A stretch of 64,000 bases of DNA from Actinomycetospora corticicola (GTDB taxonomy: Bacteria; Actinomycetota; Actinomycetes; Mycobacteriales; Pseudonocardiaceae), in NCBI RefSeq assembly GCF_013409505.1, contig NZ_JACCBN010000001.1, forward strand, positions 4,712,001 through 4,776,000, written 5' to 3'. The notes below the pieces were generated by a model. It worked only from the letters and a program-made list of their open reading frames with translations. It did no database searches and had not been told where the DNA came from. Shown here piece after piece: positions 5,815 through 61,663 of the stretch. Within the stretch, counting starts at the first letter, position 1. Every line of letters begins with the position of its first letter. The position numbers and the translations under genes were made by a program.

Positions 5815-8800
5815 CTACTGCGACAGGCCGGACACCACCCGGGAGCCCGGCTCCAGGGTGTAGCGCCCGGTCGGGTACGGCTGCTCGAAGAGCATGAGCA
5901 GCACGTCGTCGTCGACGTCCGGGAAGTCGCGGAACCGGGTGCGCAGCTCGGTGACGTCGGCCTCGCGGTAGGCGTTGCCGACGATGCCGCCGCTGTCGGT
6001 CTTCGCGACGAAGTCGGCGAGGGCGGATCCCCGCGTCTCGCCGTAGCCCAGGAAGCCGTCCATCGGCTGGGTGACGCCGTCCTGCTGGATCGGCTGGGTG
6101 ATGCACGGGAAGAGGAACGCGTTCTCCCACGCGACGGTGTACACCCCGGCGCGCGGTAGCGCGCTGGTCATCGGGGCCCAGCGCTGGAACAGGGGCGCCG
6201 AGAAGGCCAGCCATCCGCCCACGTCGGTGGCCCCGTCGGTGGCGGCGAGGCGGACGAGCGTGGCGTCGGCGGGTGCGCTCTGCGACTTCGTGATGTCGAC
6301 GGGACGCCACGCCGTGTCGTCACTGGTCTCCTGGACGGTCCGCACCCCGAGGGACGCCACCCCGCCCGGACCGGGTCGACCGAACTCGACCGCGAGCGTG
6401 TTGCCCTCGCCGATGCGGCCGGAGACCTCGGAGGTGATCGCCACGGCGTTGGGGGGCCCGGGCGGGAGCCGGTACCAGCCGGTGGTGAACGACCCGGTCC
6501 GCGCGTCGGGCGACCGGCCCGGGGACGGGGCCTCGAAGCTGCCCCACACCGGCAGGTCCCGGCCGAGGTCGGCGGGCGGCGGGCTGGTGGGCAGGTAGGC
6601 GTCGCGCGGGAAGGCCTGCCCCCCGAGCTCCCCGTCGGACCCGCCGTCGGGACCCACACCGAACGCCCCGGGCGGGGGGACCGGCACGAGCGGTGCGAGC
6701 GGGTAGCGCTGCGGGGTGAGCACGTCGATCGCCTGCTCCGCGCCGCACCGGGTGGCCGACGGGTCCCGCCACGCGTCACCGGCCGGGGAGTAGGTCGTGG
6801 CGGTCCGGTCGGCGGCGAGCGCGAAGTCGGCGATCGTGCGGGTCGTGCTGGCGGCCATGGCCAGGACGCAGAGCATCGGGATGGCGACGAGCACGGACCA
6901 CGGCCGCCAGCCCTTTCCCCGGAACGACGTCACGAGGGCGACGAGCAGGGTCAGGACGACGAGCAGCACCGCCCAGTACTGCGGCTGGTCGAAGTAGAAG
7001 CCCTTGACCGAGGGGTAGTCGAGCCAGGACGGCTGGCCGAGCCCCCACATGAAGCCCCACCGGTTGCGACCGTGCCCGGACAGCGCGATCACCGCGATCG
7101 CCGCGGCGGCGGCGGACAGGATCGCGGCGACGGGCACCCGCCCCTTCCCGGCGCGCACGGAGTCGCGCACCAGCCCGGGTGCGGCGACCAGCAGCAGGGC
7201 GAGGAAGGGGGCGCCGACCCCGACGATCGCGCCGAAGTGGTGCGAGGGCTTCGACGGGGTGGGCAGCAGGAGGACGAACGCGAGGATCGTCGACCAGCCC
7301 GCGAGCATGAGCCGGCCGGGGACCGGGAGCTCCCGCACCCGCGCCACGACCGCCGTCATGAGGAACCAGACCAGGGCGAGCAGGCACAGCAGCACCGTGA
7401 TGCGCTTGGTGTAGGTGCCGAAGCGGGACGTCTCGTCCAGCAGCGAGGCGTAACGCTGGAACTCGAGGTACCAGGTCTGGGCGCGCTGGATCGGCGCGAA
7501 GATCGCCTGGGAGCGCGCGAAGTCGCCGAAGGTGCCGTCGGCGAAGCCGAACACGGCCCCGAGCGCCCCGGGCGCGATGACGACCAGGAACCGCGGCGGG
7601 ATCTCCCACCAGTGCGCCGAACGCTCCCGGATCAGCCGCCAGACCGTCGGGGTCGCCGCGAGCAGCGGGGCGAGGCAGATGAAGCCGGTCGGCGCGGTCA
7701 TCAGGCCGATCGAGCCCACTCCCACCGCGATCCCGAGCAGGTCGAGCCGCCGTCGCTCGACGCCCTCGGCGACGAGCGCGAGCGCACCGGCCGCGAACAC
7801 GGCGGTGTAGGGCTCCGGCCGGGTGCCGACGTCATAGGCGAGCCACCAGGTCAGGAAGGCGACGCAGAGCGTCACGCGGGAGGCGGTGGCGAGCCACCGG
7901 TGCTCCTTCCAGGGGTGGGTGAGCCCGGGGCAGCGGGCGACGAACACCCGGATCGCGATCCAGGTGAGCAGGCCCAGGACCACCGACGGCACCCGGAGCG
8001 CCACCGGCGAGAAGCCGGCCTGCTGCTGCCACCACGAGAGCAGGTAGTACGGCCAGGAGAACGGCGTGAAGCCCTGGTTGTAGAGCTGGTAGTAGTTCGC
8101 GACGTAGCCGTTGTGCGGCACGTTGGCCGCCATCGCCGAGTAGTACCCGTCGTCGTCGGTCAGCGGCGCGAGGTAGAGCCACGACCAGAGCGCGACCACG
8201 ACGACGGCGTCCACCAGCCGCGGCCGCCAGGTGGACAGGCGGGCGAGCAGGATCCGGTCGACCCGGGCCCACCACGGCGTCGGTCGCAGCGCCTCGGGGC
8301 CGCTCCTGCGCCGCTTACGGCGGGCCAGCAGGATCGACGCCGTGGAGGCGAGCCCGCCGAGCACGACGGCCACGATCGCGGCCGTGATGAGGCCGTGCTT
8401 GAACGGCGTCGGGGTGCTCGCGTAGCGGTCGTCGGCGGTGATGCTGACCGACAGGTCCTGCGGACCGGCGCCCGGCAGCGTGGTGAGCGAGGTCGACAGC
8501 ACGTCGACGTCGGGCAGCGCGCTGATCGGCTTCGGATCGGGCAGGGAGTTCGGCGGGGTGTTCTTGACCTCGTCCGGGTCGGCCTCCCCGAAGCGCGGCA
8601 CGAGCCGGCCGAGGTCGCGGCCGTCGCGGTCGACCTGCACGGCCGCCGCGTCGCCCCGCACCTGGTAGGAGCAGTCGCCCGGGGGCAACGGCTCCGCCAC
8701 GATGTCCTGCCCGCCGCTGCGCACCGTGAGCGTGTCCGACCGCACCCGGACGGCGAGGGCCTTGTCGTCGAACCCGCCGGCGCGGGGGTCCATCGTCGTG

Positions 8801-9300
8801 AGGACGTAGCCGTCGGCCGTGGCACCCGCCTCGCGTGCCGTCCGGCAGCTGAAGCGCACCGAGAACGACTCGGGCTGGTAGGCCGTGAGCATCAGCATCG
8901 TCGACTCGGGCCGGTTCACGTCCAGCGGCCACCGGATCTCCGGCGAGTTCTGGACGACGGGCGCGAACGGCAACAGCAGCCCGCACACCACGGCCACGAC
9001 GGCCGACGCGACCGCGATCACCCGGGCGACGAGCAGCCCGTCGAGTCCCCAGTCCTCGGGCCCCCAGCGGTCGGGGCGCTCGTCGTCGGGGGTGAAGGCG
9101 TCCCGCGCGTCGACGTCCGGCGCGTCGGACTCCGGGGGCAGGCGCTCGGTCCCCGCGTCGAGCGCACCGCGGTCGGCGCGGGGGACGAGCCGCACCGTCG
9201 AGAGCTTGCGGCGCAGCAGGCGCAGCGGGGTGGTCGTCGTGCTCCCCGACCCCGACGGCTGCGGCGAGTCCTCGACACCCCGATCGGTGTCCTCTGCCAC
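5815..9300 (-). CDS. arabinosyltransferase, Emb family (subtype with DDGYY motif)
   Basis: This 1161-residue GT-C membrane enzyme belongs to the EmbA/B/C family, which adds arabinofuranose from decaprenyl-phospho-arabinose to arabinan. A cytoplasmic N-terminal tail of about 90 residues is longer than in the other Embs here. Then come a first helix (about 95-120), an extracellular jelly-roll region, the catalytic loop DDDGYYSAMAANVP near residue 382, many helices, and a C-terminal carbohydrate-binding region. The conserved PTKWTHHFG segment reads PSKPSHHFG near residue 683, so Trp is replaced by Pro. It pairs with the 16484-19594 Emb, sharing DDGYYSAMAANVP and YQLY-Q-FTP. The start is GTG at 9300 with GGAG nine bases upstream and a TAGCGT -10 box at 9342-9337. 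It diverges from the next gene. Confidence 0.92.
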   Translation of the reverse strand: MAEDTDRGVEDSPQPSGSGSTTTTPLRLLRRKLSTVRLVPRADRGALDAGTERLPPESDAPDVDARDAFTPDDERPDRWGPEDWGLDGLLVARVIAVASAVVAVVCGLLLPFAPVVQNSPEIRWPLDVNRPESTMLMLTAYQPESFSVRFSCRTAREAGATADGYVLTTMDPRAGGFDDKALAVRVRSDTLTVRSGGQDIVAEPLPPGDCSYQVRGDAAAVQVDRDGRDLGRLVPRFGEADPDEVKNTPPNSLPDPKPISALPDVDVLSTSLTTLPGAGPQDLSVSITADDRYASTPTPFKHGLITAAIVAVVLGGLASTASILLARRKRRRSGPEALRPTPWWARVDRILLARLSTWRPRLVDAVVVVALWSWLYLAPLTDDDGYYSAMAANVPHNGYVANYYQLYNQGFTPFSWPYYLLSWWQQQAGFSPVALRVPSVVLGLLTWIAIRVFVARCPGLTHPWKEHRWLATASRVTLCVAFLTWWLAYDVGTRPEPYTAVFAAGALALVAEGVERRRLDLLGIAVGVGSIGLMTAPTGFICLAPLLAATPTVWRLIRERSAHWWEIPPRFLVVIAPGALGAVFGFADGTFGDFARSQAIFAPIQRAQTWYLEFQRYASLLDETSRFGTYTKRITVLLCLLALVWFLMTAVVARVRELPVPGRLMLAGWSTILAFVLLLPTPSKPSHHFGAIVGVGAPFLALLLVAAPGLVRDSVRAGKGRVPVAAILSAAAAAIAVIALSGHGRNRWGFMWGLGQPSWLDYPSVKGFYFDQPQYWAVLLVVLTLLVALVTSFRGKGWRPWSVLVAIPMLCVLAMAASTTRTIADFALAADRTATTYSPAGDAWRDPSATRCGAEQAIDVLTPQRYPLAPLVPVPPPGAFGVGPDGGSDGELGGQAFPRDAYLPTSPPPADLGRDLPVWGSFEAPSPGRSPDARTGSFTTGWYRLPPGPPNAVAITSEVSGRIGEGNTLAVEFGRPGPGGVASLGVRTVQETSDDTAWRPVDITKSQSAPADATLVRLAATDGATDVGGWLAFSAPLFQRWAPMTSALPRAGVYTVAWENAFLFPCITQPIQQDGVTQPMDGFLGYGETRGSALADFVAKTDSGGIVGNAYREADVTELRTRFRDFPDVDDDVLLMLFEQPYPTGRYTLEPGSRVVSGLSQ

Positions 9301-9336
9301 TGCACGTGCTCCGTCCGCCGCCGCCCGGTCGCGGAA

Positions 9337-11211: not shown

Positions 11212-11293
11212 CCGCACGTCCGCCCGGTGGCGACACGCCGCCCACGGTCACCCTGGGCGTGGAGGCCGACCGGCTTCCGGCAGGCTGTCGCGC

Positions 11294-12799: not shown

Positions 12800-12950
12800 G
12801 CCGCCTCGGCGAGTTCTCACGGCCCGTGACGGGAACCGCAACCCGCGACCGCTACCGTGGGTGGTGCATCGAGAAATCGACCGAAACCGGACGGGTCGTC
12901 GCCGACGCCGTCCGGAGGGTCGATCGTCGCCGAGCAGGGAGGGCACGGCC

Positions 12951-14081
12951 ATCGCTCGCACCGAGGAGCCTGCCGAGAACGACCTGGTCATCGTCCTGAC
13001 CTACTACTCCCCGTACGTGTCGGGCCTGACCAACGTGGCCCGGGACGTGGCCGAGGGGTTGGCGGCACGCGGGTGGCGGGTGTGCGTCATGGCGAGCAAG
13101 CACGACCCGTCGCTGCCCAACACCGAGATCCTCAACGGGGTCCGGGTGGTGCGTGCCCCGGTGCTCGCCAAGGTCGGCAAGGGCACCCTCGGCATCAATC
13201 TCACCCGCCTCGCGCTGCGGGAGATGCGGCGCTCGCGCGTGGCGAACCTGCACCTGCCCCTCATCGAGGCCGGGCTGCTCACCCGCTTCGCGCCGATCCC
13301 GGTCGTCTCCACCTACCACTGCGACGTCAGCCTGCCGCCCGGCATGGTCAACGTCGCCCAGCGCGAGGCGGTCGACCGCTCGAACCGCTCCGGGCTCCGA
13401 CGATCGGTCGCCACCGTCGTGACGAGCGAGGACTACGCGCGCCAGAGTCGGCTGTGGCCGGAGATCGCGCCGCACATGGTCGCGATCCCGCCGCCCTGCC
13501 TGCCCGTGGCCGAGGCCGAACCGACCTATCGCCGTGGCGACGGCTTCCACGTCGGCTTCCTGGGCCGGATCGTCGAGGAGAAGGGCGTCGAGCACCTCGT
13601 CGACGCGTTCCTGGCCCTCGACGACCCCGACGCCCGCCTTCTGATCGGCGGCGACCACAGTCGGATCGCGGGCGGTAGCGTCGTCGACCGCGTCCGCGCC
13701 CACATCGGTGACGACCCCCGGGTCGAGCTCCTCGGCTTCGTGCCCGACGAGCGGCTCGGCGAGTTCTACGCGTCGATCGACGTCTTCGCGCTGCCCTCGG
13801 TCAACGCCTTCGAGGCGTTCGGGATCGTCCAGGTCGTCGGCATGCTCGCCGGCGTCCCCGCGCTGGTGAGCGACCTCCCCGGGGTGCGGCTGCCCGTCGA
13901 GCGGACCGGGTTCGGCCGGATCGCGGCGCCCGCGGACGTCCCCGCCCTCCGCGACGGGCTCGAGGCCCTGCGCGACACCCCGCCGGACCCCGCGGCCGGT
14001 CGAGCCGCCGCGGCCACGAACTTCAGCGTCGACGCCGTGCTCGACGCCTACGAGGCGGTCTTCACCAAGGCCGCCGGCTGA
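12951..14081 (+). CDS. glycosyltransferase family 4
   Basis: This cytoplasmic GT-B enzyme has an N-terminal acceptor domain opening with LVIVLTYYSPYVSGLTN. Its C-terminal nucleotide-sugar domain has GFLGRIVEEKGVEHLVDAF near residue 195, followed by the E-x7-E region EAFGIVQVVGMLAGVPALVS. It probably adds a hexose or related sugar to a lipid-linked glycan. The start is a problem. A GGAGGG at 12938-12943 sits seven bases before an ATC at 12951 that gives (M)ARTEEPAENDLVIVL. The only canonical starts in frame (GTG 12861 or 12864) add a 30-residue Arg-rich segment with no Shine-Dalgarno. A TACCGT box at 12853-12858 would start the mRNA near 12865. The methyltransferase gene follows 29 bases downstream. 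Confidence 0.85.
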   Translation: MARTEEPAENDLVIVLTYYSPYVSGLTNVARDVAEGLAARGWRVCVMASKHDPSLPNTEILNGVRVVRAPVLAKVGKGTLGINLTRLALREMRRSRVANLHLPLIEAGLLTRFAPIPVVSTYHCDVSLPPGMVNVAQREAVDRSNRSGLRRSVATVVTSEDYARQSRLWPEIAPHMVAIPPPCLPVAEAEPTYRRGDGFHVGFLGRIVEEKGVEHLVDAFLALDDPDARLLIGGDHSRIAGGSVVDRVRAHIGDDPRVELLGFVPDERLGEFYASIDVFALPSVNAFEAFGIVQVVGMLAGVPALVSDLPGVRLPVERTGFGRIAAPADVPALRDGLEALRDTPPDPAAGRAAAATNFSVDAVLDAYEAVFTKAAG

Positions 14082-14110: not shown

Positions 14111-14836
14111 GTGACCACCGACCGCGACATCGACGACGTCTCCCGTACCTGGACGAAGCTGGGCGACGAGGACCCGATGTGGGCGGTGCTCACGGACAAG
14201 GGCAAGGACAAGAACCGCTGGGAGCCGGCGGACTTCCTGGCCACCGGTGTCGAGGAGATCGCCGCCCTGGTCGAGCGTCTCGACGCGCTGGGGCTCCGGC
14301 CGGGACGGGGGCGCGCCGTCGACTTCGGCTGCGGCGCCGGGCGGCTCAGCCACGGCCTCGCGCAGGCCGGCTTCGAGGAGGTCCTCGGCTGCGACATCTC
14401 GCCGACGATGCTTGCCAAGGCCCGCGAACTCGTGACCGATGACGCCTGTCGGTTCGTGCAGGTGATGGGCACCGACCTCGCCGCGGTCGAGACCGACTCG
14501 GTCGACCTCGTCTACTCCTGCCGCGTCCTGCAGCACATGCCGCCGGCGCTGGCGCACGGCTACATCCGCGAGTTCTGGCGGGTGGCCAGGCCGGGCGCCG
14601 TGGTGGTCTTCCAGATGCCCACCCAGCCGTCGTCGTCCCTCGCCGGCCGCGTTCTCTCGGCCCTCCCGGTGTCGGTGGCCCGTCTGCTGCGCCGGGGGAT
14701 GGAGATGCACGGGACCCCGGAGCCCCAGGTGCACCGCCTGGTCGAGTCGCTGGGCGCGCGCGTCGTCGCGGCCGACCCCGACACGAGCGCGGGCCCGCGC
14801 TGGGACAGCCGGCTCTACATCACGACGACGGCCTGA
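14111..14836 (+). CDS. class I SAM-dependent methyltransferase
   Basis: The 241-residue soluble protein shows SAM motif I VDFGCGAGRLSHGLA near residue 76, then GCDISPTMLAKAREL, the acidic motif for adenine binding DLVYSCRVLQHMPP near residue 132, and a typical post-core RVARPGAVVVFQMP. It lies directly after the GT4 gene and before the second AftB-like gene, so it probably acts on the same surface glycan or its carrier. The GTG at 14111 follows CTGGAG about 10 bases upstream. Substrate and methylated atom are unknown. Confidence 0.85.
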   Translation: MTTDRDIDDVSRTWTKLGDEDPMWAVLTDKGKDKNRWEPADFLATGVEEIAALVERLDALGLRPGRGRAVDFGCGAGRLSHGLAQAGFEEVLGCDISPTMLAKARELVTDDACRFVQVMGTDLAAVETDSVDLVYSCRVLQHMPPALAHGYIREFWRVARPGAVVVFQMPTQPSSSLAGRVLSALPVSVARLLRRGMEMHGTPEPQVHRLVESLGARVVAADPDTSAGPRWDSRLYITTTA

Positions 14837-16473: not shown

Positions 16474-16496
16474 CGTCCGGCCCTCAGGGCCGGACG
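16474..16496. terminator. bidirectional hairpin between convergent GT-C and emb genes
   Basis: A perfect 10-bp stem (CGTCCGGCCC / GGGCCGGACG) encloses the three-base loop TCA. That loop is the stop codon (TGA, minus strand) of the emb gene. No T-tract follows on either side, as is common in GC-rich actinobacteria. Confidence 0.65.
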
Positions 16497-26585: not shown

Positions 26586-26783
26586 ACCCACCGCCTCTCG
26601 GGAGTCCGACGCGCCGTCCGCGACGACCCCTGTCCAGGTGAACGAGCGAACGGCCCTCCGGTCGCTCCCTTCCCGTCGAGCATGACCTCCACGCCTCGCC
26701 GACCCGACGGCCACCCCGACGGAGGAGGGGACGAGTCGGGCGTCCGGCTTGAAGCGGACCTGTCCGACTGATCTCATTCCTCC

Positions 26784-31445: not shown

Positions 31446-33129
<1,684 letters not shown>

Positions 33130-37442: not shown

Positions 37443-37558
37443 GGCGCGTACTTCCCGTCGTCCGGACGGGAGGAAACGGACATTTGCCAGCAGAACGACA
37501 GGTTGGGCCGACCGGCCGTGCCGTGTGGGGGCGGACGGGTGCTGTCGGGGGTGGGCGC

Positions 37559-37564
37559 TACCGT
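37559..37564 (+). promoter_or_regulatory. leaderless promoter of glfT2, -10 box TACCGT
   Basis: TACCGT stands seven bases before the glfT2 ATG, with the same box and spacing as glf, which suggests matched expression of the two galactan genes. Confidence 0.65.
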
Positions 37565-37571
37565 CGGGTGC

Positions 37572-41628: not shown

Positions 41629-41631
41629 CGA

Positions 41632-44222: not shown

Positions 44223-44291
44223 GTGCTCCGCGTGTGAGCACTAACGGTCGTGATAGCGACCTTTTCTGCTCACGTGCGCGCAGCGCACCTA
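44220..44291. terminator. palindromic element between mscL and GT-C gene, stop codons at both ends
   Basis: The element begins TAGGTGC and ends GCACCTA. Both terminal TAG triplets (44220-44222 plus strand, 44291-44289 minus strand) are the stop codons of the convergent genes. Inside, GTGAGCA pairs with TGCTCAC, and GGTCG with CGACC around a six-base loop; the CTAAC/TTTTC part is unpaired. It is one of four related elements in the window. Confidence 0.7.
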
Positions 44292-50570: not shown

Positions 50571-53555
50571 CTAGCTCTCCCCGATCGAGAGCGGACCCGG
50601 GGTCGAGAACCCGCTGAGGGAGACCTCGCGGGAGGTGACCGCGGGCGGGACCAGCGGCGTCGTCGGGACCCAGCGCTCGAGGCTCGCGATGTCGGTCAGG
50701 GGCAGTCCCGGCAGGTAGACCGCGTAGCGCACCTGCCGGACCAGTGCCCGGGCGGTAAGCCACGGCCCGCCCTGCGAGGCGGTGTAGCTGATGTAGCCGG
50801 ACTGCGCCTCGCTGCGGGCGTCGGTGGACACCCGCCAGCCGGGGAGCTCGGCGACACCGTCGCGCAGGGTCGGGAACGGGGTGCACGGGAAGAGGAACGC
50901 GCCCGGCCAGTCGACGGCGGCGGGGGTGCCGGGGGTGAGGACGTCGTTCCACGGCACGAGGCGGGCGATCCGTGGGACGGAGAAGCCCTGCGACTCCGGG
51001 GTGTCGCGGCTGCTGACCAGGCGGACCGCGACCTGGTCGACGGAGAGCGCGGGGTCGAGGCGCAGGTCGCGCGAGCGCGGGGCGTCGACGCTCGCCGACT
51101 CCGCGTACTGGGTCGCGCCCTCGTCGAGCGGCACGCGCGTGACCTGCCCGTCCGCGGCGCGGAACTCGGCCACGACGTCGCCCGTCAGGACGGGACCGGT
51201 CAGGGTCACGACGACGGGTCCGGGCGCCGCGGGCTCCTCACCCGGCGGGTAGGTCGCGGAGTCCCGGCCGGGGAGGCGGTACCAGCCGGTCGTGACGGCG
51301 GGTCCGCGCCAGGCGGGGAGGTCGGCGCCGGCCATGCTCGGGCCGTCGGGTCCGGTCGTCGGGAGGGCGCCCGGTTGCTCGGCGGGCAGCAGGCCCGCGA
51401 GCGGGTCGCGCTCGACGCGCAGCCGGTCGGCGATGCCGCACGAGTGGCCCGTCAACGACGCGACCGAGTCCGACGCCAACGTGTACGAGTCCCGCCGCTG
51501 GTAGGCGGTGCGGGCGAACGAGAGCACCTCGATGGCGACGACCAGCACGACGACGCCGATCGCGAGGGCGGGCCCCCACTCGGTGGCAGCTCCTCCTCTC
51601 ATGACAGGAAAGCGTCGTTGCTGCCGTCCAGTGGCAGGTTCGCCGCTTCGTCGCAGCGCCAGGACCGCCAGGACGACCGCCACGACCGCGCCGAGCACCA
51701 GCACGGCATCGGCGAACCGGACCCCACCGAGCTGCGGCGACAGCGTCGACCACGTGATCGCGTAGCTCGAGATCCAGTGCCACTGGTTGTAGCCCGCGAG
51801 CGTCAGCCCCGACACGCCCGCGGCCACCGCGACCCCGACCGACGCGCGGCGCAGCCGCCGCGACCCGTCGTCGGGAACAGAGCGCCGCCAGGCCTCGAGG
51901 GCGAGCAGCGTGGTGGCCGTGCCGAGGACGGCGAAGGCGCCGAAGTGGTGCGTCCACTTCGTCGGGGTGAAGGCGAGCGAGACGAGGGAGAGCAGGGTGA
52001 CCACGACGACGCGGCGGCTCGTCCCGGTCAGCCGGTCGCGGGCGCCGAAGGCGAGGGCGGCGAACGCGAGGACGAGCAGGAGCACGGGCGCGCGGCGGCC
52101 GAGGTTGCCCTCCGCGTCGCCGACGGTGAGCAGCGAGGCGTAGCGGACGTACTCGTCGGTCCAGGGCCGGTCGCCGCCGATGAGGGTGCGGATGCCGACG
52201 GAGTCGAGCACGGAGGCCCATGTCTGCCCCGCGTAGACCAGCACGAGGGTGAGGCCGAGGGCCGCGATCCCGACGACGAGCGTGGTCGGCTTCAGCAGCC
52301 GCAGGAGCGCGGCCGCGCCGACGAGGAGGGGGACGAAGGCCATCAGTCCGGTCGGGGTGACGGCGAGCGTGAACCCGGCGATCGCGAGCGCCCCGACGAG
52401 GGCGACCGGGCTCGACCGCTCGATCGCCCGCTCCACCAGCACGAACACCAGCGCCGACCCGACGAGCACCCACGGTTCGGGGCGGACGCCGAGGTCGTAC
52501 GGCAGCCACCAGGCCAGGTAGACGACGCCGGCGAGCAGGGGCATCGACGGGGCGGTCAGGCGGGGCAGCACGCAACGGGAGAGCAGGAACCAGCCGACGA
52601 TGCCCAACGCCGTGGCGGGCAGGCGCAGCCAGAACGGGGCCGGGTCGACGCCGGCGATCAGCGCCAGCACCTCGTAGAACCAGCCGAACGGCGTCTCCGG
52701 GGAGTTCAGCCAGCGGAAGACCGTGCCGACCTGCCCGTTCTGGCCGAGCGACCGGACGATCCCGGCGATGTACCCGTCGTCGACCGTCAGCGGCCCGATC
52801 ACCTGCCACAGCAGCAGGCCGCCGACAACGCCGAGGTCGGCCAGGCGGGCGCGCGGACCCCTCGACGATGTGGCGTTCCTGCCACTGGACGACAGCAACG
52901 ACGCTTTCCTGCCACGGAGCAGGAGCAGCGCCCCGAGGGCCACGAGGAACGCCAGGACCGCGACGACCCCGAGCGCGACCTTCCACCCGCCCGCCGTCGT
53001 CTGGAACCGGGTGTCGCCGACCGCCGAGAAGCTCAGGCCGGCCGAGGTCGCCGCGCCGGTGAACGCCCCCGCCACGGCCGGGCGGACGTCCCCGTCGGCC
53101 CGGGCGACCTCGCGACCGTCCACGGACAGGGTGGTCGCGGCGATCGTGGACTCCACGCGCAGGGAGCCGGGCGGCACCGGGTCGAACGTCCGCCCGCCGG
53201 AGGTGACGTCGAGCGTCCGGTCCGCGTCCACCCGCACCGTGAGGCCCTGGAGCGGCTCGGCGAGCGGGTCGGCCACGAGCGGCGCGGTGGAGAACAGGAC
53301 GGTGCCGGGACCCGTCGCCCGCGCCGCGTCGGCGGACACCGTCACGGTCAGCGACTGCGGCTGGTAGGGCAGCATCGGGATCGCCGCGCCGGTCGGCGCC
53401 GCGGAGGTCGGCCACGCGTACGTGACGACCGGCTGGCTCACCGGCGCGAACGGGAACGCCAGGGCTGCGAGCACCGACACCAGACCGGCGACGAGGGCGA
53501 CGAGCCCGAGCCGCCCCGACCTGTCGTCGGGAACAGGATCAGCCGAGGTACTCAC
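50571..53555 (-). CDS. arabinosyltransferase, Emb family (carries in-frame repeats)
   Basis: The 994-residue Emb-type GT-C enzyme has a first helix near residues 15-38 and the catalytic loop [18 protein letters not shown] near residue 258. [13 protein letters not shown] is near residue 531, and a C-terminal carbohydrate-binding domain ends the protein. Two 46-bp repeat elements lie in frame, in opposite orientations. They encode [18 protein letters not shown] near residue 214 and [15 protein letters not shown] near residue 637, both in loops between helices. The GTG at 53555 overlaps the end of the upstream emb gene by 17 bases. Position next to dprE1 parallels emb genes of M. tuberculosis, but the A/B/C type cannot be assigned. 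Confidence 0.93.
51601..51646 (+). repeat. 46-bp repeat element within emb, copy 1
   Basis: It reads ATGACAGGAAAGCGTCGT at its left end and ends GGCAGGTTCGCCGC. It matches the reverse complement of 52870-52915 at 40 of 46 positions. The insertion keeps the emb frame. Confidence 0.8.
51861..51880. repeat. 20-bp repeat within emb (pair with 53517-53536)
   Basis: This sequence (core CCCGTCGTCGGGAACAG) is repeated at 53517-53536 with one mismatch, both inside the same emb gene and encoding VPDD-[GR]-S. A shorter match lies at 41473-41489 in the 47-bp repeat array. Confidence 0.6.
52870..52915 (-). repeat. 46-bp repeat element within emb, copy 2 (inverted)
   Basis: Its minus-strand reading starts GTGGCAGGAAAGCGTCGT and ends GGCAGGAACGCCAC; ends GTGGC/GCCAC are complementary. 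It is the inverted partner of 51601-51646. No other copy was seen in this window. Confidence 0.8.
53517..53536. repeat. 20-bp repeat within emb (pair with 51861-51880)
   Basis: It differs from 51861-51880 at one base and encodes PVPDDRSGR at the extreme N-terminus of the 50571-53555 product. Confidence 0.6.
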
Positions 53556-56500
53556 GGCCCGAGTAGGCCTCCGTCGCGAGGGTGGGGAACCGGGTCAGGC
53601 CGCTGCGGATGACCGAGCCGACGGTGAGGTCGTAGTTGTCGGTCGGGTGGTCGTAGACGATCCGGTCGACGTTGCCCCACTGCAGCGTGGGCGGGCCGCC
53701 CGCGGTCACGGTCGAGTAGATGCGCACCGTCGCCCAGGTCCGCTCGGACTGCACCATCGTCCCGCCCCACGACTCGTAGGTCGGGTTGGTGAGGATGAAT
53801 TCGGGCGTGTTCTCGGCGGCCTGCAGCCGGACGACGGGGGTCGGGGCGATCCCGTGGGCCACGGCCACCTGGTTCACGCACGGCCAGAGGACGGCGGAGA
53901 GCTGGTCGGCGAAGACCGGCGGGCCGGTCTCCGGGTCGTGGCCGTAGGAGTCGGGCCCGACCAGCGACTGCACCGGCTGCATCGCCGCGAGGTGCGGCGG
54001 GGCGACGGCGAGGGCGGTGTCCGGGCCGGCGACGCGGTCCTCGGCGACCAGACGCACCGCGGTGGGCCGCTCGCCGGGCAGCAGGACCGGGACCTCCTGC
54101 CACTGGCGGGCGGTCAGCCCGGGCGCGGGGTTGACGGTGACGGCTGTGGTGCGTGTGGGCGCCGCGGCGGGCCCGTAGCCGAACTCGAGGACGATGCGCT
54201 GGGAGTTCGGGTCGTTGCCCGCGACCGGCACCACCACGTGCGTCGCGGTCGACTGCGCGGGCACCGGGTACCAGCCCGTCGTCAGGGTCCCGAGGCCCGT
54301 GCCCTGCTGCGGGAGGTTCGGGTCGCTGGTCACGGCGTCGTGCCACAGCTCCGGGCCGCTGCCGCCGGGCGCGGGCCCGGGCGGGGGCACCGGGGCCTCG
54401 TCGGGGCCGCCGTTGCCCGGCTGCGTCAGCGCGAAGTCCCCGGTCGCGACGGCGGGGGTGACCGGCCCGCCGAGGTCGGCGGGGGTCCGCTCCATCACCT
54501 CGACGGAGTTCGACAGCTGGCACGGACGCCCGACGAGTGCCTGCAGCTGCGCGCCCGCGACCGACCAGCCCGGCGCCTGGATCACCGGCGCGTAGACCAT
54601 CACGGCCACCATGAGCAGGGCGGTCATGACGACGGAGGGGACCAGCACGGCCCGGTCGGGGGTGATGCCGAAGGTCGGCCTCCGGTTCCGGCGCCGCCAC
54701 GCCACGAACAGCGCGGCCAGGAGCGCGAGGCCGATCCACCAGAAGAACTGCCGCAGGAAGAACGGGCCGATGTGCGGGGCGAGGCCCTCCATGTCGAGCA
54801 TCGACATGTCGGGGTCGAGGTGCTTGCCGAACGGCTGGCCGCGGTCGGAGTAGGGCTTCCAGACGTTCGGGCCCGCGAACCCGAGCACGGTCGCCCCGGT
54901 GAGCAGGGCGACGCCCGCGCCGGTCACGAGCGCGCCCGGTCGGCGCGGCAGCGGGGTCTGCAGCATCGCCAGCGTCAGCAGCAGCGTGCCCGGCGCGGCG
55001 ATCGCGCCGAAGTGGTTCACCCACTTCGTCGGGCCGAGGGCCAGCAGGAACAGCGCCACCGCCGTCGTCACCGCGGTGGAGAGCGTGTAGGCGTGGATCG
55101 GGCCGTCGCTGCGGCCCCGTCGTCCGGAGCCGATGGAGACGATCACGAGCAGGACCAGGGTGAGCAGCACCGGCAGCCGGCGTCCCCACGTCCCGGTCTC
55201 GATCAGCGTCCGGTAGTGCGCCCACTCCTCGTACCAGGGGAAGGTCACGTAGTACCAGGAGTGCACGCCGGTGGCCTCGACGACGTCGCCGAAGGTCGCG
55301 TCCCCGAACCCGACCGGGATCGCGATCGTCCCTGCCGCGATCACCGCGCCGACGACCCCGAGCCGCGTCCGCCAGCTCGTCGTCTTCAGCCACCGGAAGA
55401 GCCAGGGCAGGGTCACGACGACGGGTGCGGCCGAGACCAGGCCCGACGGCGAGATCGTCACCGACAGCGCCGCGAGGGCGGTGGCCAGGATCAGCGGGCC
55501 GACGGCCTCCCGGCGCCGCGCGATCTCCGCGAGCAGGAGCACCGCGGCGAACACGGGGACGATGAACACCTCGGGCCGCAGCGCCATGCCGTAGGGCAGG
55601 AACCAGGCCAGGTGCGCGCCGAGCAGGGTCCACGGCACCCAACGGCGGCGTTCGATACGCCCCAGCGCCGTCGAGAGCACCCCGCGCAGCAGGAACCACG
55701 TGAGCAGGCCCAGGAGCAGCGGCAGGCACCGCATCCAGAGCAGGCCCCAGCCGGGCATGCCGAGCCAGTTCCCGACCGACCCCCACATCGACATCAGGTA
55801 CTGGCTGCCGACGAACGGGTTCTCCGTCGTGTCGAACATGTAGATCTGGTTGCCGACGTATCCCGTGGCCCCGGCGTTGCGGGCCATGAGCAGGTACCAG
55901 GAGTCGTCGTTCTGCAGCGGGCTGAGGATCACCCACGCCGCGCTGACGACCCCGACCGCCACGTCCGCGCCGTGGAACCGCGGCCGGACGAAGCCGTGCC
56001 CGCCCCGGCCCCACCAGCGGCGTCCGGCGAGCACGAGGGTCGCGGCGAGCGCGAGGACGTGCAGGATCAGCAGCGTCAGCTTCAGGCCCGACGGGACGCT
56101 CGAGTACCGGTCGTCGGGATGGATCGTGGCAGCGAGGCCGGGCGTCCCGGGGGCGTCGGTGGCGAGTTCGGCGACCTGCGGGGCCTGGCCCGGCGCGGCG
56201 TAGAGCTGCTGTCCGTCGCGGCTCAGCGTGGTGGTGGTGCCGTCGTTGGCGAAGCGGTACACGCAGGGCGTGAGGGGGAGGACCTCGTCGACGAGGGTGG
56301 CGCCGTCGCTGGTGACCGTGACGCGGCCGCCCGAGTTCGACACGGTGAGCCCGCGCCCCGGGGTGCCGGCGCTCGTCGGCTGGGTGCGCAGGGCGTCCCC
56401 GCCGCCGCGGAGGGCCTGGCACGGCACCTCGGCGGTCATCGCCAGCGGGCGGTACGGCACGAGCGGGACGCTCGTCGAGGCCGCGGGCTGCCCCGCCTTC

Positions 56501-56676
56501 GGCCACGTGACGACCGGGTCGTCCGCCGTGACCGGCGCGAACGGGATCGCCACGCCCAGCAGCACGGTCACCGCCGCGAGCGCCGCGAGGAACCACCCGG
56601 ACCGCACCGTCGTGCCGGGGGTGGATCGCGGCGGACCCTCCGTGGCGCGCACAGGGGTGTCCTCGACGACGGCCAT
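53539..56676 (-). CDS. arabinosyltransferase, Emb family, with altered catalytic motif
   Basis: The 1045-residue Emb-family protein has a first helix near residues 28-50 and many further helices. The catalytic loop near residue 257 reads LQNDDSWYLLMARNAGATG, in place of DDGY, so Gly and Tyr after the acidic pair are Ser and Trp. The other hallmark is GPTKWVNHFG (near residue 548) instead of [10 protein letters not shown]. The C-terminal carbohydrate-binding region is present. It may have another acceptor, or work as the partner in a heterodimer as EmbA does with EmbB. The ATG at 56676 is eight bases after a TACCGT box (leaderless). Its end overlaps the next emb start. It diverges from gtrA. 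Confidence 0.9.
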   Translation of the reverse strand: MAVVEDTPVRATEGPPRSTPGTTVRSGWFLAALAAVTVLLGVAIPFAPVTADDPVVTWPKAGQPAASTSVPLVPYRPLAMTAEVPCQALRGGGDALRTQPTSAGTPGRGLTVSNSGGRVTVTSDGATLVDEVLPLTPCVYRFANDGTTTTLSRDGQQLYAAPGQAPQVAELATDAPGTPGLAATIHPDDRYSSVPSGLKLTLLILHVLALAATLVLAGRRWWGRGGHGFVRPRFHGADVAVGVVSAAWVILSPLQNDDSWYLLMARNAGATGYVGNQIYMFDTTENPFVGSQYLMSMWGSVGNWLGMPGWGLLWMRCLPLLLGLLTWFLLRGVLSTALGRIERRRWVPWTLLGAHLAWFLPYGMALRPEVFIVPVFAAVLLLAEIARRREAVGPLILATALAALSVTISPSGLVSAAPVVVTLPWLFRWLKTTSWRTRLGVVGAVIAAGTIAIPVGFGDATFGDVVEATGVHSWYYVTFPWYEEWAHYRTLIETGTWGRRLPVLLTLVLLVIVSIGSGRRGRSDGPIHAYTLSTAVTTAVALFLLALGPTKWVNHFGAIAAPGTLLLTLAMLQTPLPRRPGALVTGAGVALLTGATVLGFAGPNVWKPYSDRGQPFGKHLDPDMSMLDMEGLAPHIGPFFLRQFFWWIGLALLAALFVAWRRRNRRPTFGITPDRAVLVPSVVMTALLMVAVMVYAPVIQAPGWSVAGAQLQALVGRPCQLSNSVEVMERTPADLGGPVTPAVATGDFALTQPGNGGPDEAPVPPPGPAPGGSGPELWHDAVTSDPNLPQQGTGLGTLTTGWYPVPAQSTATHVVVPVAGNDPNSQRIVLEFGYGPAAAPTRTTAVTVNPAPGLTARQWQEVPVLLPGERPTAVRLVAEDRVAGPDTALAVAPPHLAAMQPVQSLVGPDSYGHDPETGPPVFADQLSAVLWPCVNQVAVAHGIAPTPVVRLQAAENTPEFILTNPTYESWGGTMVQSERTWATVRIYSTVTAGGPPTLQWGNVDRIVYDHPTDNYDLTVGSVIRSGLTRFPTLATEAYSGREYLG

Positions 56677-56684
56677 GGGTGGCA

Positions 56685-56690
56685 ACGGTA
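56685..56690 (-). promoter_or_regulatory. leaderless promoter of the emb pair, -10 box TACCGT
   Basis: TACCGT on the minus strand lies eight bases before the ATG at 56676. The divergent gtrA box (56728-56733) is only 37 bases away, so both may share control. Confidence 0.6.
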
Positions 56691-56727
56691 TCGACGGTGC
56701 GGTGACGCACCGGTGGGGGGCGGCTCC

Positions 56728-56733
56728 TACCAT
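56728..56733 (+). promoter_or_regulatory. leaderless promoter of gtrA-like gene, -10 box TACCAT
   Basis: TACCAT is eight bases before the GTG at 56742. No Shine-Dalgarno is visible. Confidence 0.58.
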
Positions 56734-56741
56734 CGGCAGGC

Positions 56742-57197
56742 GTGAGTGTCGAGGAGAACGCCGTGGGCCCCGCGGAAGCGGCGGTCGCCCCGGTCGCGCT
56801 GGGCCTGAGGGCGCAGCTGGTGCGCTTCGTGCTGATCGGCGGCGTCGCGGCCTGCGTCGACCTGGGCATCTACCAGCTGCTCCTGGCCCTCGGGGTGTGG
56901 GCGCCCCTGGCCAAGGGGGTGTCGTTCATCCTCGGAACGACCACGGCCTACCTGCTCAACCGGCGCTTCACGTTCGCCTCGTCCTCCGGCGGCGGCGCGA
57001 AGTTCCTGGGCTTCGTGGTGCTCTACGGCTCGACCTTCGCCGTGAACGTCGGCGTCGCGTCGCTGGTGCTGCACCTCATGGACGCCCCGTCGGTGAACCC
57101 GCCCCTCATCGCGTCCCTGCTGTCCTGGTTCGTCGCCCAGGCGTGCGCGACCACGATCAACTTCGTGGTGATGAAGTGGGTCCTCTTCAGGAGCTAG
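56742..57197 (+). CDS. GtrA family membrane protein (Rv3789-like)
   Basis: The 151-residue protein has four membrane helices, with RFVLIGGVAACVDLGIYQLLL, the hallmark TTTAYLLNRRFTF near residue 66, and VAQACATTINFVVMKWVLF at the end. GtrA proteins are thought to help move polyprenyl-phospho-sugars across the membrane. The M. tuberculosis relative Rv3789 lies beside dprE1 and was tied to decaprenyl-phospho-arabinose and to wall-enzyme assembly. Here it is likewise next to emb and dprE genes, but on the opposite strand. The TAG stop begins a palindromic element (57195). Confidence 0.9.
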   Translation: MSVEENAVGPAEAAVAPVALGLRAQLVRFVLIGGVAACVDLGIYQLLLALGVWAPLAKGVSFILGTTTAYLLNRRFTFASSSGGGAKFLGFVVLYGSTFAVNVGVASLVLHLMDAPSVNPPLIASLLSWFVAQACATTINFVVMKWVLFRS

Positions 57198-58183: not shown

Positions 58184-58218
58184 AGGGGCTTGGAGTGCCG
58201 GACCGGCGATTCGGTTCC

Positions 58219-58288
58219 AGGTGCCTGCGGCCTGTGAGTACTAATCCGTGTTCTGACACGGATTAGTACTCACAGGACGAAGTCACCT
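58219..58288. terminator. palindromic element between emb and AbiEi-like gene
   Basis: A perfect 21-bp stem (58231-58251 / 58256-58276, arm CTGTGAGTACTAATCC) with the loop TCTG is framed by outer AGGTG / CACCT. The emb stop (58285-58283) is in the outer right arm. It ends the emb transcript and lies upstream of the AbiEi-like start. Confidence 0.8.
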
Positions 58289-61200
58289 CTCCGGCGACGG
58301 AATCCCGGGCGGCGGGTCGCCGATCTCGCCCTCGCTGTGGTTGCCCCACACGGTCTTCTCGCCGCGCACGACGTCCGGGGCCACCGTCCCGGGCGCGTAG
58401 GGCTCGAGCCGCTCGATGCGGCCCCAGTCGAGCGAGGCCTCGCCCTCCAGGTAGGACGGCACGTCCTGCTGGCGCTCGAGGACCTCGATCCACCCCATCG
58501 GCCCGCCGGCCGAGGGCTGGGACCAGGTCTCGCCACCGATCCGGAACTGCGAGGCGTCGGCGATGAGTCGGTAGGTCGGCACCTCGGCGATGCCGTCGGA
58601 GACGTCGAACGGCCGCAGGCACGGCGAGGCGAACTGCACCGGCCACTCCAGGTAGCCCGGTTGGGTGCCGACCGCCTGCGTGAACGGCACCAGCTTCGGC
58701 CCGCGCATCGGGGCCACCGCGATCCACCCGTCCGGGCCCAGCGAGCGGTCCTGGGCGACGAGGCGGACCTCGTCGGCCGTGGCGCCCTTGGTGGTGTTCA
58801 GGTTGACCTTGATCTCGCGCCACGGCGGCTCGTTGCCGCCCCCGCCGCCGAGCTGGTCGGAGCCGAGGATCTGGATCCGGCCGTCGGGGAAGCGCTTGGC
58901 GTACTGCAGGAACAGGCTGTTCCCGCCGTCGAGCCGGCCCGCCACCGAGATCACCAGCGGCGTGTTCCCGGAGCGCAGCGAGTCGTCCACCGACTGCCAC
59001 GGCGTCCGCAGCACGCCGGTGGCCCGCCCGGTGGGGTCGTACGTGCCGAGGATCTGCGACGACAGGTCGTTGCGCAGCGTGTACTCGTAGCCCGACACCC
59101 CCGTGCCGCCACCGGTCGGCGGCACGGCGTCCTCGGCGTGGAAGCCGTCGTTCACCGGCGTCGGGTCGACGAGCTGCGCGAGCGGGCTGGACGCGGGGAC
59201 GGTGTCCGGCGGCAGCGGCGCGGGCTGCTGCCCGGGGGCGAGCGGCACCTGCGGCGCCACGATCGGCAGCACGCCGCGGGCCGAGGGCACGAGGCCGGTG
59301 GGCGCCGGCGCGTCCGGCAGGATCCCGGCGGCCGGGCTGCCCTCCACCTTGACGTCGTCGGCGAGCCCGCACGACGTGGAGAACCCGGTGCGCAGCACGT
59401 CGCCGCCCAGGGAGAAGCTGTCCCACTGCTTGTCGATCGCCTTGCCCATCGACGCCATCTGGAACAGCACGAGCGCCCCGCAGATCACCGCGATCGGCGC
59501 CGACCCGATCCGCAGCGCCCGCGCCCGTCGCTCCACGGCGCTCCCGGAGCGGGAGCCGCGGAGCTTCTTCAACGGTCCGCCGGCCGACGCGAGGAGCTTC
59601 GTCCACCGTCCCGACGACGGGTCGCGCGGCTCCTGCGGCACACCCCGCAGGTGCTCGATGGCGGCCACGACGAGGAAGACGAACGCGACCCCGAGGAGCA
59701 GCGTGGAGGCCTGGTAGCCGTGGTAGGAGGGCGGCTTGTCGTTCCAGGGCACGCCCCAGTTGTTCGTGTACCACCAGGTGTTCGGGCCGGTGAACGCGAG
59801 CGCGAGGGTCGCGAACACGGCGGCGAGGAACAGCGAGCGGTTGCGCCGCGAGCGCAGCACGTCCGACGACGTGGCGAGTGCGGTCAGTGCCGCCATGCCG
59901 GAGCCGAGCGCGGCGAACGCCCCGAAGTGGTGGGTCCACTTCGTCGGGGTCAGCGCGAGCACGAGGAAGCCCAGCAGCGTCGTGCCGATGAGCCGCTGCG
60001 ACGGGCCGAGGGCGGCGCCCTTGATGCGGTTGCGGCGCAGCAGCACCACCAGGCACACCACGAGCCCGAGGATCAGCAGCAGGACCGGCGCCCGGCGCTC
60101 CAGCGAGCCGTCCGCGGAGACCGAGAAGAGCGACTCGTAGCGGACCACCTCCTGGTACCAGGTGTAGTTCGGGCCCAGGAGGAAGCGGACCCGGTTCGCC
60201 TCCATCACCGCCGCGTAGGTCTGGTCGGCGAACACGGCGACGAGCACGATCAGGCCCGCCGAGAGGATCGGCAGCAGCACCGGCAGCCAGCCCAGGCGGC
60301 GGACCCGCTCCTGGACGAGGCGGAACAGGGGGCGGGCCGCGGCGAGGAACGGGGCGACCGCCATGAGGCCGGTCGGCGTGGCGGCGAGGGCGAACGCGGC
60401 GGCGACCAGGCCGAGCGCCACCGGCGCGAGCCGGCGGGTGGCCACGGCCCGCTCCACCGAGCAGAACGCGAGCAGCGCGGAGATGACGGCCACCGGCTCG
60501 GGGCGCAGCCCGTTGTTGAACGGCAGCCAGAACATCAGGAAGACCATCGCGGCGGCCCAGCCCGCGGCCTTGGAGCGCCGGACCTGCTGGCCGAGCCGGG
60601 GGAGCATCTCCCGGCTGATCAGCATCCAGGACACGATGCCCATGAACACCGACGGCAGGCGCATCCAGAGGACGTTGTCGCTGACCTGCACCCACACCGC
60701 GTACAGCTCGTAGAACCAGCCGAACGGCGCCTCGGGGACGTTGAACCAGCGGTAGTAGTTGCCGATGTAGCCGGCGCTCTCCCGGGCGCGGGCGATGCCG
60801 AGGATGTAGCCGTCGTCGGAGGTCTGGGACCCGATCACCGCCCAGACGGCGAGCCCGGCGACGACCACGCCGTCCCGCCAGGTCGGGAGCCACCAGCGGC
60901 GCGGTGCGAGCCGCGGGGCCCGGCGGCCGGCGCGGGTGTCGAGCACGTGCAGCGCCCACACCGCGCCGAGGAAGCACAGGATCGCGAGGATGCCGGCCAG
61001 GGTCTTGAACTCGGTCGCCGTCGTCTGGAAGCGCGTGTCCGGCGTGATCGAGACGCTGGTGCCGGAGACCGGGTCGCGGTTCTGGTCGAGGTCGGAGTAG
61101 ATCCCGACGACCTGCGGGCGGAAGTCCCCGCCCAGCACCGTGTCGGCGCCGGCGCCGAGGTTGATGACGGTCTCGGAGAAGTCCGAGGTGATCGTGACGT

Positions 61201-61663
61201 TGCAGGGACCGGTCGGGATCGGCTCCTGGGCGGCCTGCTGCCCGCGGTCCGCGACCGTGAGCTGACCGTCGTCGACGAAGAGCTGCATGCCGACCTGGGC
61301 GCCCTGCGGCGAGAGCGGCGGGGTCGTGGAGAGCACGGTCGCGCGCTGGGTGGCGCGGGCGTCGAGGCTGCGGATGGCCGCGCAGGGGATCGTCGCCGTC
61401 ATCGACTCCGGCCGGAACGCGACCAGGGGCGCGTCGACCGAGCGGGTCCCGTTCGCGGCGCTGGGCCACTGGATCGTCGCGGTGTCCTGCACGACCGGCA
61501 GGAACGGGTAGAGCACCGCGAGCACCGAGCCGAGCCCGCCGAGCACGATCGCGATCCAGCGCCAGCGGCGCAGCACGCGCTCGTCCCCGCCCGACGCCGG
61601 GGCGGGGCGGGTGCCGTTGCTCGTGGAGTGCGTGGTCGGCGGGACGGAGTCCGAGGTCAGCAC
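58283..61663 (-). CDS. arabinosyltransferase, Emb family (closest to mycobacterial EmbB/C)
   Basis: The 1126-residue protein follows mycobacterial Emb proteins best. It has a first helix near residues 36-58 and an extracellular N-terminal domain. The catalytic loop is SDDGYILGIARARESAGYIG near residue 282 with NYYRWFNVPEAPFGWFYEL just after. [37 protein letters not shown] near residue 572, and a large C-terminal carbohydrate-binding domain follow. The residue equal to EmbB Met306 is Ile. GTG at 61663 has AGGA nine bases upstream. It lies downstream of glfT1 (85 bases) and may be co-transcribed with the exporter genes. Confidence 0.94.
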   Translation of the reverse strand: MLTSDSVPPTTHSTSNGTRPAPASGGDERVLRRWRWIAIVLGGLGSVLAVLYPFLPVVQDTATIQWPSAANGTRSVDAPLVAFRPESMTATIPCAAIRSLDARATQRATVLSTTPPLSPQGAQVGMQLFVDDGQLTVADRGQQAAQEPIPTGPCNVTITSDFSETVINLGAGADTVLGGDFRPQVVGIYSDLDQNRDPVSGTSVSITPDTRFQTTATEFKTLAGILAILCFLGAVWALHVLDTRAGRRAPRLAPRRWWLPTWRDGVVVAGLAVWAVIGSQTSDDGYILGIARARESAGYIGNYYRWFNVPEAPFGWFYELYAVWVQVSDNVLWMRLPSVFMGIVSWMLISREMLPRLGQQVRRSKAAGWAAAMVFLMFWLPFNNGLRPEPVAVISALLAFCSVERAVATRRLAPVALGLVAAAFALAATPTGLMAVAPFLAAARPLFRLVQERVRRLGWLPVLLPILSAGLIVLVAVFADQTYAAVMEANRVRFLLGPNYTWYQEVVRYESLFSVSADGSLERRAPVLLLILGLVVCLVVLLRRNRIKGAALGPSQRLIGTTLLGFLVLALTPTKWTHHFGAFAALGSGMAALTALATSSDVLRSRRNRSLFLAAVFATLALAFTGPNTWWYTNNWGVPWNDKPPSYHGYQASTLLLGVAFVFLVVAAIEHLRGVPQEPRDPSSGRWTKLLASAGGPLKKLRGSRSGSAVERRARALRIGSAPIAVICGALVLFQMASMGKAIDKQWDSFSLGGDVLRTGFSTSCGLADDVKVEGSPAAGILPDAPAPTGLVPSARGVLPIVAPQVPLAPGQQPAPLPPDTVPASSPLAQLVDPTPVNDGFHAEDAVPPTGGGTGVSGYEYTLRNDLSSQILGTYDPTGRATGVLRTPWQSVDDSLRSGNTPLVISVAGRLDGGNSLFLQYAKRFPDGRIQILGSDQLGGGGGNEPPWREIKVNLNTTKGATADEVRLVAQDRSLGPDGWIAVAPMRGPKLVPFTQAVGTQPGYLEWPVQFASPCLRPFDVSDGIAEVPTYRLIADASQFRIGGETWSQPSAGGPMGWIEVLERQQDVPSYLEGEASLDWGRIERLEPYAPGTVAPDVVRGEKTVWGNHSEGEIGDPPPGIPSPER

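Follow-up and report, generated by a model that had tools for sequence, protein, structure and literature searches.

Emb proteins, members of glycosyltransferase family GT53, are familiar both for adding arabinose and as targets of the tuberculosis drug ethambutol. As set out in passages of PMC11127046, a known route to pentofuranose transfer places phosphoribose on polyprenyl phosphate, removes the phosphate, optionally epimerises the sugar (DprE1/DprE2 for arabinose), flips the lipid and ends with transfer by a GT-C enzyme. Systems of this kind that add ribofuranose comprise a UbiA-type synthase, a flippase and a GT-C transferase, and DprE1/DprE2 homologues accompany arabinose. Here we analyse a 64,000-nucleotide window of the Actinomycetospora corticicola genome (G000:C1:4712001-4776000, on one contig of 6.17 Mb), which is a cell-wall galactan/arabinan locus of this organism. 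Two of its five Emb-family proteins, E1 and E2, fall into a separate clade, here called clade R, whose members probably use decaprenyl-phosphoryl-ribose as a GT53 version of the three-component pentofuranose systems. The most likely difference of the E1/E2 pair is one of sugar donor, beyond branching alone.

Clade R shares features with each of the closest described systems. Like EmbA, EmbB and EmbC (GT53; PDB 7bvf, 7bvh, 7bwr), its proteins have the three Emb Pfam domains, the full-length fold and the catalytic Asp pair, and lie in a galactan/arabinan cluster; they differ in forming a separate clade, in their 23-27% identity, in substitutions of Glu313 (to Phe/Tyr), Trp308 (to Leu/Ile/Met/Val) and Ser636 (to Trp), and in usually lacking DprE1/DprE2 neighbours outside Actinomycetospora and Pseudonocardia. 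With the mycobacterial decaprenyl-phosphoryl-arabinose (DPA) pathway (Rv3806c, Rv3807c, DprE1, DprE2, Rv3789, Emb) clade R shares the first two steps and a GT53 last step, whereas searches for the epimerase were negative in 10 of the 11 genomes that have clade R and lack a canonical Emb. The three-component systems, in the passages of PMC11127046 that describe Citrobacter O1 and GT136, resemble it in combining a UbiA-type polyprenyl phosphoribose synthase and a phosphatase with a flippase and a GT-C enzyme, DprE1/DprE2 homologues appearing only where arabinose is added. Clade R departs from that model in using GT53 instead of GT136, a PAP2 instead of a HAD phosphatase and a large MOP-type instead of a four-helix flippase, as well as in its additional GT4 glycosyltransferase and its Gram-positive wall galactan setting.

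The Emb-family genes of the window are as follows.

5815..9300, minus strand: E1, GT53 clade R, 1161 amino acids (PF04602, 6.7e-66)
16484..19594, minus strand: E2, GT53 clade R, 1036 amino acids (PF04602, 4.9e-76)
50571..53555, minus strand: E3, GT53, lineage sister to the EmbABC/E5 group, 994 amino acids (PF04602, 6.7e-106)
53539..56733, minus strand: E4, GT53, E4/E6 lineage, 1064 amino acids (PF04602, 7.8e-54)
58283..61663, minus strand: E5, canonical-type Emb grouping with EmbA/B/C, 1126 amino acids (PF04602, 1.8e-192)

All five are full-length proteins that match PF04602, PF14896 and PF17689 above cut-off, the latter two covering the N and C carbohydrate-binding domains, and PF04602 E-values from 7.8e-54 to 1.8e-192 make chance matches untenable; the five Emb-family genes proposed in an earlier, sequence-only reading are thus real. 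Its motifs are also present as given, namely DDGYYSAMAANVP and YQLY-Q-FTP in E1 and E2, DDGYI in E3 and E5 and DDSWY in E4. An alternative E4 frame at 53552-56869 was discarded, having no Pfam match, whereas the overlapping 53539-56733 frame matches. NCBIfam named none of the five entries searched, which included the discarded E4 frame in place of the correct one. The genome holds seven GT53 genes in total, two of them outside the window: E6 at C1:4690718, some 20 kb before it, and E7 at C1:913654. Expansion of the family is a trait of the genus, since all 17 same-genus genomes examined carry between four and nine copies. Identity is 40% between E1 and E2, 25-32% between the other E1-E5 pairs and 23-27% between E1/E2 and the EmbA/B/C rows or E5, and the values among E1-E5 reject a recent tandem duplication as the origin of the five copies. 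The best solved structure for E5 is EmbC (687 bits), and the closest named loci to the window are from Actinomycetospora (e.g. L210, with 89% identity for E1).

Phylogenetic trees (FastTree of 112 proteins, IQ-TREE of 64) concur on the groups and differ at the deepest forks, which are weakly supported (support 17). In the mycobacterial reference locus L053, the first gene is EmbC (1863 bits) and the third EmbB (1848 bits), the middle gene being taken as EmbA from its position alone, without a search. E5 groups with these mycobacterial proteins, within a wider EmbABC group yet outside the A, B and C rows themselves; E3 is the sister of the EmbABC/E5 group, E4 pairs with E6, and E7 stands apart. 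E1 and E2 belong to clade R (17 rows, SH-aLRT 100), outside the EmbA, EmbB and EmbC clades. A tree constrained to place them with EmbABC/E5 is worse by 548 log-likelihood units and is rejected (approximately unbiased test, p-AU 6.5e-38; the hypothesis came from the sequence-only reading, and the rows of the group were picked after the IQ-TREE result had been seen), which supports a separate pair. The proposed division of the five copies into two subtypes does not hold, as E3, E4 and E5, clustered at 50-62 kb, represent three different lineages.

The predicted fold of E2 (AlphaFold, pLDDT 83) matches EmbA, EmbB and EmbC best over its full length, with query TM-scores of 0.72-0.76 over the first nine chains and 0.75-0.76 for 7bvf, 7bvh and 7bwr_A. 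We compared active-site positions in EmbB numbering, with residues drawn from passages of PMC7341804 and PMC7305291, across the 64 aligned tree rows, of which 63 were counted by clade (L100_G033 is in no list). The catalytic Asp pair D285/D286, R389 and E391 are kept in 63 of 63 rows, and all 17 clade R rows additionally keep W504. According to the passages of PMC7305291, E313 and D285 bracket the arabinose of DPA in EmbB. At the E313 position clade R has Phe (14 rows, E1 and E2 among them) or Tyr (three rows) throughout, whereas every one of the 46 rows from other clades has Glu, E3, E4 and E5 included. Ser636 is replaced by Trp in all 17 clade R rows and is Ser in 40 of 47 rows of other clades; at Trp308, clade R carries Leu, Ile, Met or Val. 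A scan of named sequences, which used a DDDGYY-like pattern and so selected rows for part of the active-site region, gave 78 rows with 65 Phe/Tyr, 11 Glu (Pseudonocardia E3/E5-type) and two gaps at E313. On both clade position and Glu313, then, E1 and E2 are not EmbA/B/C orthologues. These residues also bear on whether E1 and E2 could be non-catalytic or regulatory Emb partners: Emb proteins act as dimers, to judge by the titles of the solved EmbA-EmbB and EmbC2 entries, and E1 and E2 are strongly divergent, which would suit such a role. We consider it very improbable, given that the Asp pair, R389 and E391 are intact in every clade R row and that ten of the 11 genomes with clade R and no canonical Emb yielded no GT53 other than a clade R protein (the exception, G203, also has an E7-type gene).

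The distribution of arabinose-donor genes argues in the same direction as the pocket. Among 248 genomes of the order, 104 carry GT53. A canonical-type best GT53 match is present in 87, and DprE1 occurs in 87 of 87; only divergent GT53 is present in the other 17, and DprE1 in six of these. The cut between canonical and divergent (1e-115) was chosen after the list had been seen, and G211 and G221, which fall below it with E3-type genes, are both DprE1-positive. Clade R without canonical Emb accounts for 11 of the 17 (G233 was assigned by a 41% match to E2 and by its cassette, not by the tree), and only one of the 11, G184, encodes DprE1, together with AftA. The split of DprE1 between clade R and canonical genomes gives a Fisher p of 8e-13, ignoring kinship. 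Twelve DprE1-less GT53 genomes were examined further, comprising the other ten clade R genomes, G033 and G195. DprE2 was found in none of the twelve, as against nine of nine DprE1-positive genomes searched, and AftA exceeded the cut-off in none, with weak sub-threshold matches in three; G024 gave two weak partial DprE1 matches only (58 and 44 bits). Eleven of the twelve encode the UbiA-type synthase, among them all ten clade R genomes, where it mostly lies near the clade R gene. The twelfth is G195, whose only GT53 is E7-type. In Lentzea aerocolonigenes a single GT53 was found, of clade R, and neither DprE1 nor DprE2. Ribose is thus a better fit than arabinose, at least for the ten DprE1-less clade R genomes, because the arabinose-donor enzymes were not found, the synthase is present and Glu313 is lost.

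G033 (L099, L100) combines two long-branch GT53 proteins with a UbiA-type synthase; DprE1, DprE2 and AftA were not found in it. Of the sample, 16 Geodermatophilaceae genomes have DprE1, and 11 genomes of this family have DprE1 and no GT53 match, with AftA over the cut-off in three. In the other eight, a different transferase may draw on the arabinose donor.

Genes lying near E1 and E2 in the window include the following.

3880..5100, plus strand: u388, MOP-superfamily flippase-like membrane protein (fold match; adjoins clade R in other taxa)
5097..5810, plus strand: MT2, methyltransferase (PF13489, 1.2e-18)
12861..14081, plus strand: GT4 glycosyltransferase (PF13692, 5.3e-19)
14111..14836, plus strand: methyltransferase (PF08241, 5.9e-19)

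The protein u388 has no Pfam match itself; its predicted fold (AlphaFold, pLDDT 92) matches MATE, WzxE and MurJ proteins in Foldseek (best E 4e-7, WzxE TM up to 0.77), which makes it a MOP-superfamily flippase by fold. The scan gave 65 named loci, and neighbours were labelled in 62 of them (all but L227, L233 and L246), in stretches of up to about 23 kb, so that outside the sampled genomes an absence holds only for the neighbourhood. First-hit gene calls in genomes such as G098 and G207 came from a home-made script that may miss small genes; it missed u388 in these two, and tblastn recovered the gene in the matching named loci. Clade R proves widespread. Outside Actinomycetospora and Pseudonocardia its cassette consists of a decaprenyl-phosphate phosphoribosyltransferase (UbiA-type), a PAP2 phosphatase, a GT4, a Wzx/MurJ-like flippase (u388) and the GT53. 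Among the 35 named loci there, UbiA is present in 32, GT4 in 33, u388 in 32 and PAP2 in 26, so that synthase, flippase and GT-C transferase typically occur together as in the three-component systems, and DprE1/DprE2 occur in none of the 35 stretches. All four partners are found in 12 of 12 Lentzea/Umezawaea loci. The 12 Geodermatophilaceae loci have UbiA in 10, PAP2 in eight, GT4 in 11 and u388 in 10, and for the 11 remaining loci (Quadrisphaera, Isoptericola, Herbiconiux, Naasia, Clavibacter, Streptomyces NP160 and an Actinomycetales metagenome-assembled genome) the counts are 10, six, 10 and 10. The three loci without UbiA are two from Modestobacter and a 4.8 kb Clavibacter contig; in G188, the genome matching the Modestobacter loci, UbiA lies about 14 kb from the GT53. 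GT4 is the best conserved partner, at 53-90% identity across taxa. MT2 lies near clade R in 14 of 14 Actinomycetospora and 11 of 13 Pseudonocardia named loci. The sequence-only reading had described E1 and E2 as scattered among GT4, aftA and methyltransferase genes; Pfam matches bear out those identities, and the arrangement is not random, as GT4, the flippase-like gene and MT2 are conserved partners.

Within the window, u388 adjoins E1. The donor synthase of this genome stands separate from E1 and E2: a UbiA-type decaprenyl-phosphate phosphoribosyltransferase (445 bits, cut-off 207; gene at C1:4699794, about 11-12 kb outside the window) lies with a PAP2 phosphatase at C1:4699243-4700825, some 11-13 kb before the window.

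These neighbourhoods also bear on the rival view that E1 and E2 are ordinary DPA-dependent arabinofuranosyltransferases, whose paralogy serves a longer or differently branched arabinan and whose relatives in DprE1-less genomes are fed by an unrecognised epimerase. That view draws strength from the family and fold that E1 and E2 share with EmbA/B/C, from the multiplicity of GT53 in every same-genus genome examined, from their place in one large arabinogalactan locus with dprE1/dprE2, and from dprE1/dprE2 beside clade R in five of 13 Pseudonocardia stretches. We nevertheless regard it as rather unlikely: besides the negative DprE1 and DprE2 searches in ten of the 11 genomes and the loss of the donor-pocket Glu in all readable clade R rows, PAP2 and UbiA directly follow the GT53 in the 12 Lentzea/Umezawaea loci, so that an epimerase gene would not fit between them. 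An epimerase encoded within the DprE1-less cassettes was likewise rejected, the interval between GT53 and UbiA being occupied by AMP-ligase-like, DUF1028, CoA-transferase and PAP2 genes (G051 and G091; G180 by cluster). A quite improbable variant gives clade R a different pentofuranose on polyprenyl phosphate, for example xylofuranose, which a different epimerase would make from the ribose lipid. In passages of PMC11127046, a short-chain dehydrogenase/reductase (SDR) epimerase yields xylofuranose from the same entry lipid, and passages of PMC5742155 list xylose for Geodermatophilus obscurus and mention it for G. saharensis; against this, they do not list it for Klenkia, nor do those of PMC11092160 for Lentzea, and no SDR-type gene lies between GT53 and UbiA in G051, G091, G180 or the compact Lentzea/Umezawaea loci, longer gaps (14 kb, G188) not having been checked gene by gene.

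Published sugar compositions bear on the donor as well. Passages of PMC11092160 report galactose, mannose and ribose in descriptions of Lentzea, and a table of seven species lists arabinose for none and ribose for five. Passages of PMC5742155 list ribose, mannose, glucose and often galactose for Klenkia, with arabinose unlisted, give ribose and glucose for G. ruber DSM 45317, and do not confirm an older claim of arabinose in G. nigrescens. In these passages, the silence on arabinose for Lentzea and Klenkia speaks for a ribose donor and against an ordinary arabinofuranosyltransferase. Arabinose is often listed for Blastococcus strains (passages of PMC9686282).

From the observed gene identities, clade, synteny, DprE1/DprE2 absence, pocket substitution and predicted folds, we infer a donor, an acceptor, a linkage and a flippase cargo for clade R along the following lines. 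The UbiA-type phosphoribosyltransferase and PAP2 phosphatase would make decaprenyl-phosphoryl-ribose, and clade R would take the pentofuranose directly from this lipid, with no epimerisation to arabinose. The sugar would be added outside the membrane, onto wall galactan or a GT4-started glycan, and u388 would flip either the donor or that glycan; a galactan acceptor is suggested by the glfT2a- and glf-like genes near clade R in eight of the 11 remaining loci. This decoration would run beside the ordinary arabinan machinery, the whole cassette, which is a single unit in other taxa, having presumably merged into the arabinogalactan locus in Actinomycetospora and Pseudonocardia. The second arabinan-type polymer suggested by the sequence-only reading is accordingly plausible as a second pentofuranose-type polymer or branch; its arabinan-type nature is doubtful, as searches for DprE1/DprE2 were negative in ten of the 11 genomes and the Glu is lost.

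Several observations weigh against a ribose donor. For Actinomycetospora alone our confidence is lower than overall, being carried over from relatives: the window's genome has genes for both the ribose and the arabinose donor lipid, so that E1 and E2, in a genus with DprE1/DprE2, may use arabinose. G184 likewise combines clade R with DprE1/DprE2. Of the ten clade R genomes without DprE1, nine come from the Geodermatophilaceae and one from Lentzea, so the independent lineages are few. An unrelated epimerase may be encoded elsewhere in these genomes. Glu313 is kept in DprE1-less genomes by E7-type proteins (G195, G203) and by a G033 protein, so it is not a strict mark of an arabinose donor. Some clade R genes have no adjoining GT4 or u388 (G091, G180, G184). 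Passages of PMC11092160 give only rhamnose and galactose, with no ribose, for L. waywayandensis and L. kentuckyensis, both of which carry clade R, and those of PMC9686282 give arabinose for several Geodermatophilaceae, whose DprE1 status was not matched strain by strain. Finally, ribose in whole-cell hydrolysates can stem from RNA.

More widely, E7-type GT53 genes belong to a conserved set of four, the other members encoding a GT2, a GtrA-family protein and an amine-oxidase-like flavin adenine dinucleotide protein (L175:4638-10462 in G195, L177 in G203, L149-L150 in G022 and L041 in G029), which suggests another lipid-linked sugar donor; neither DprE1 nor the UbiA-type synthase was found in the G195 genome. 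A broader proposal, to which we give somewhat less than an even chance, is that the entire clade R branch of Emb proteins consists of ribofuranosyltransferases that use decaprenyl-phosphoryl-ribose to decorate wall galactan in many Actinobacteria, that the galactan of Actinomycetospora and Pseudonocardia would bear both ribose and arabinose, and that E7-type proteins would form a third donor class supplied by a lipid-linked sugar made by GT2/GtrA. A word search of one open-licence library found no paper joining GT53 with "ribofuranos-", and none joining Pseudonocardia with arabinogalactan and arabinosyltransferase; on ribofuranosyl glycopolymers in Microbacteriaceae walls it gave a single general review.

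The remainder of the locus is in keeping with its wall function. Arabinose and galactose occur in Actinomycetospora walls, and the locus holds the canonical genes glf, glfT1, glfT2, dprE1/dprE2, an aftA-like gene and Emb E5 with its relatives. Its other features are as follows.

19779..21653, plus strand: AftA-like arabinofuranosyltransferase (PF12250, 1.5e-96; PF12249, 7.1e-39)
21670..23547, minus strand: GlfT2b, divergent second GlfT2-like galactofuranosyltransferase (PF19320, 3e-23; PF17994, 4.6e-22)
31864..33129, plus strand: Glf, UDP-galactopyranose mutase (TIGR00031, 332 bits, cut-off 304)
36294..39575, plus strand: open reading frame with GlfT2a, canonical GlfT2 (PF19320, 6.5e-72; PF17994, 5.9e-47)
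48381..49136, minus strand: DprE2 (NF053786, 401 bits, cut-off 250)
49156..50466, minus strand: DprE1 (NF053785, 744 bits, cut-off 500)
56742..57197, plus strand: GtrA-family flippase-like protein (PF04138, 1.5e-20)
61749..62648, minus strand: GlfT1 (NF050113, 502 bits, cut-off 330)
62645..63976, minus strand: ABC transporter pair, ATPase 62645-63460 and permease from 63467 (PF00005, 1.7e-22; PF01061, 1.9e-6)

By analogy, we take the ABC transporter pair to occupy the galactan-exporter position. The GlfT2a gene starts inside its open reading frame, as the family match begins at about residue 502. With both a canonical and a divergent GlfT2-like enzyme, a second galactan-type step is possible; seven other sampled genera (G020, G025, G026, G028, G031, G032, G035) have Glft2_N matches of the divergent type only (66-89 bits). 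The AftA_N family, present at 19779-21653, was detected in just seven of 17 same-genus relatives, though all have several Emb proteins, and AftA was rejected as a universal partner. Two acyltransferase-3 genes (24537-27038 and 46969-48333, one SGNH-fused) may provide acyl decoration of the polymer. Large Pfam-less proteins are encoded at 9514-12799, 14935-16464 and 44289-46538. The frames at 9514, 11294 and 14935, which the sequence-only reading had called GT-C, and that at 44289 gave no Pfam and no useful NCBIfam match, and the 44289 protein gave no useful match to solved structures; in some loci of Pseudonocardia (L203, L225, L230), a relative of the 9514 protein is encoded close to dprE1.

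If a ribose donor is correct, the Emb family switches donors, and neither GT53 genes nor the donor synthase should be read as proof of arabinan. Clade R and its canonical relatives would then provide a natural comparison of how the pocket discriminates ribose from arabinose, and a ribose-bearing wall galactan would be predicted for genera where ribose of the wall has perhaps been put down to RNA.

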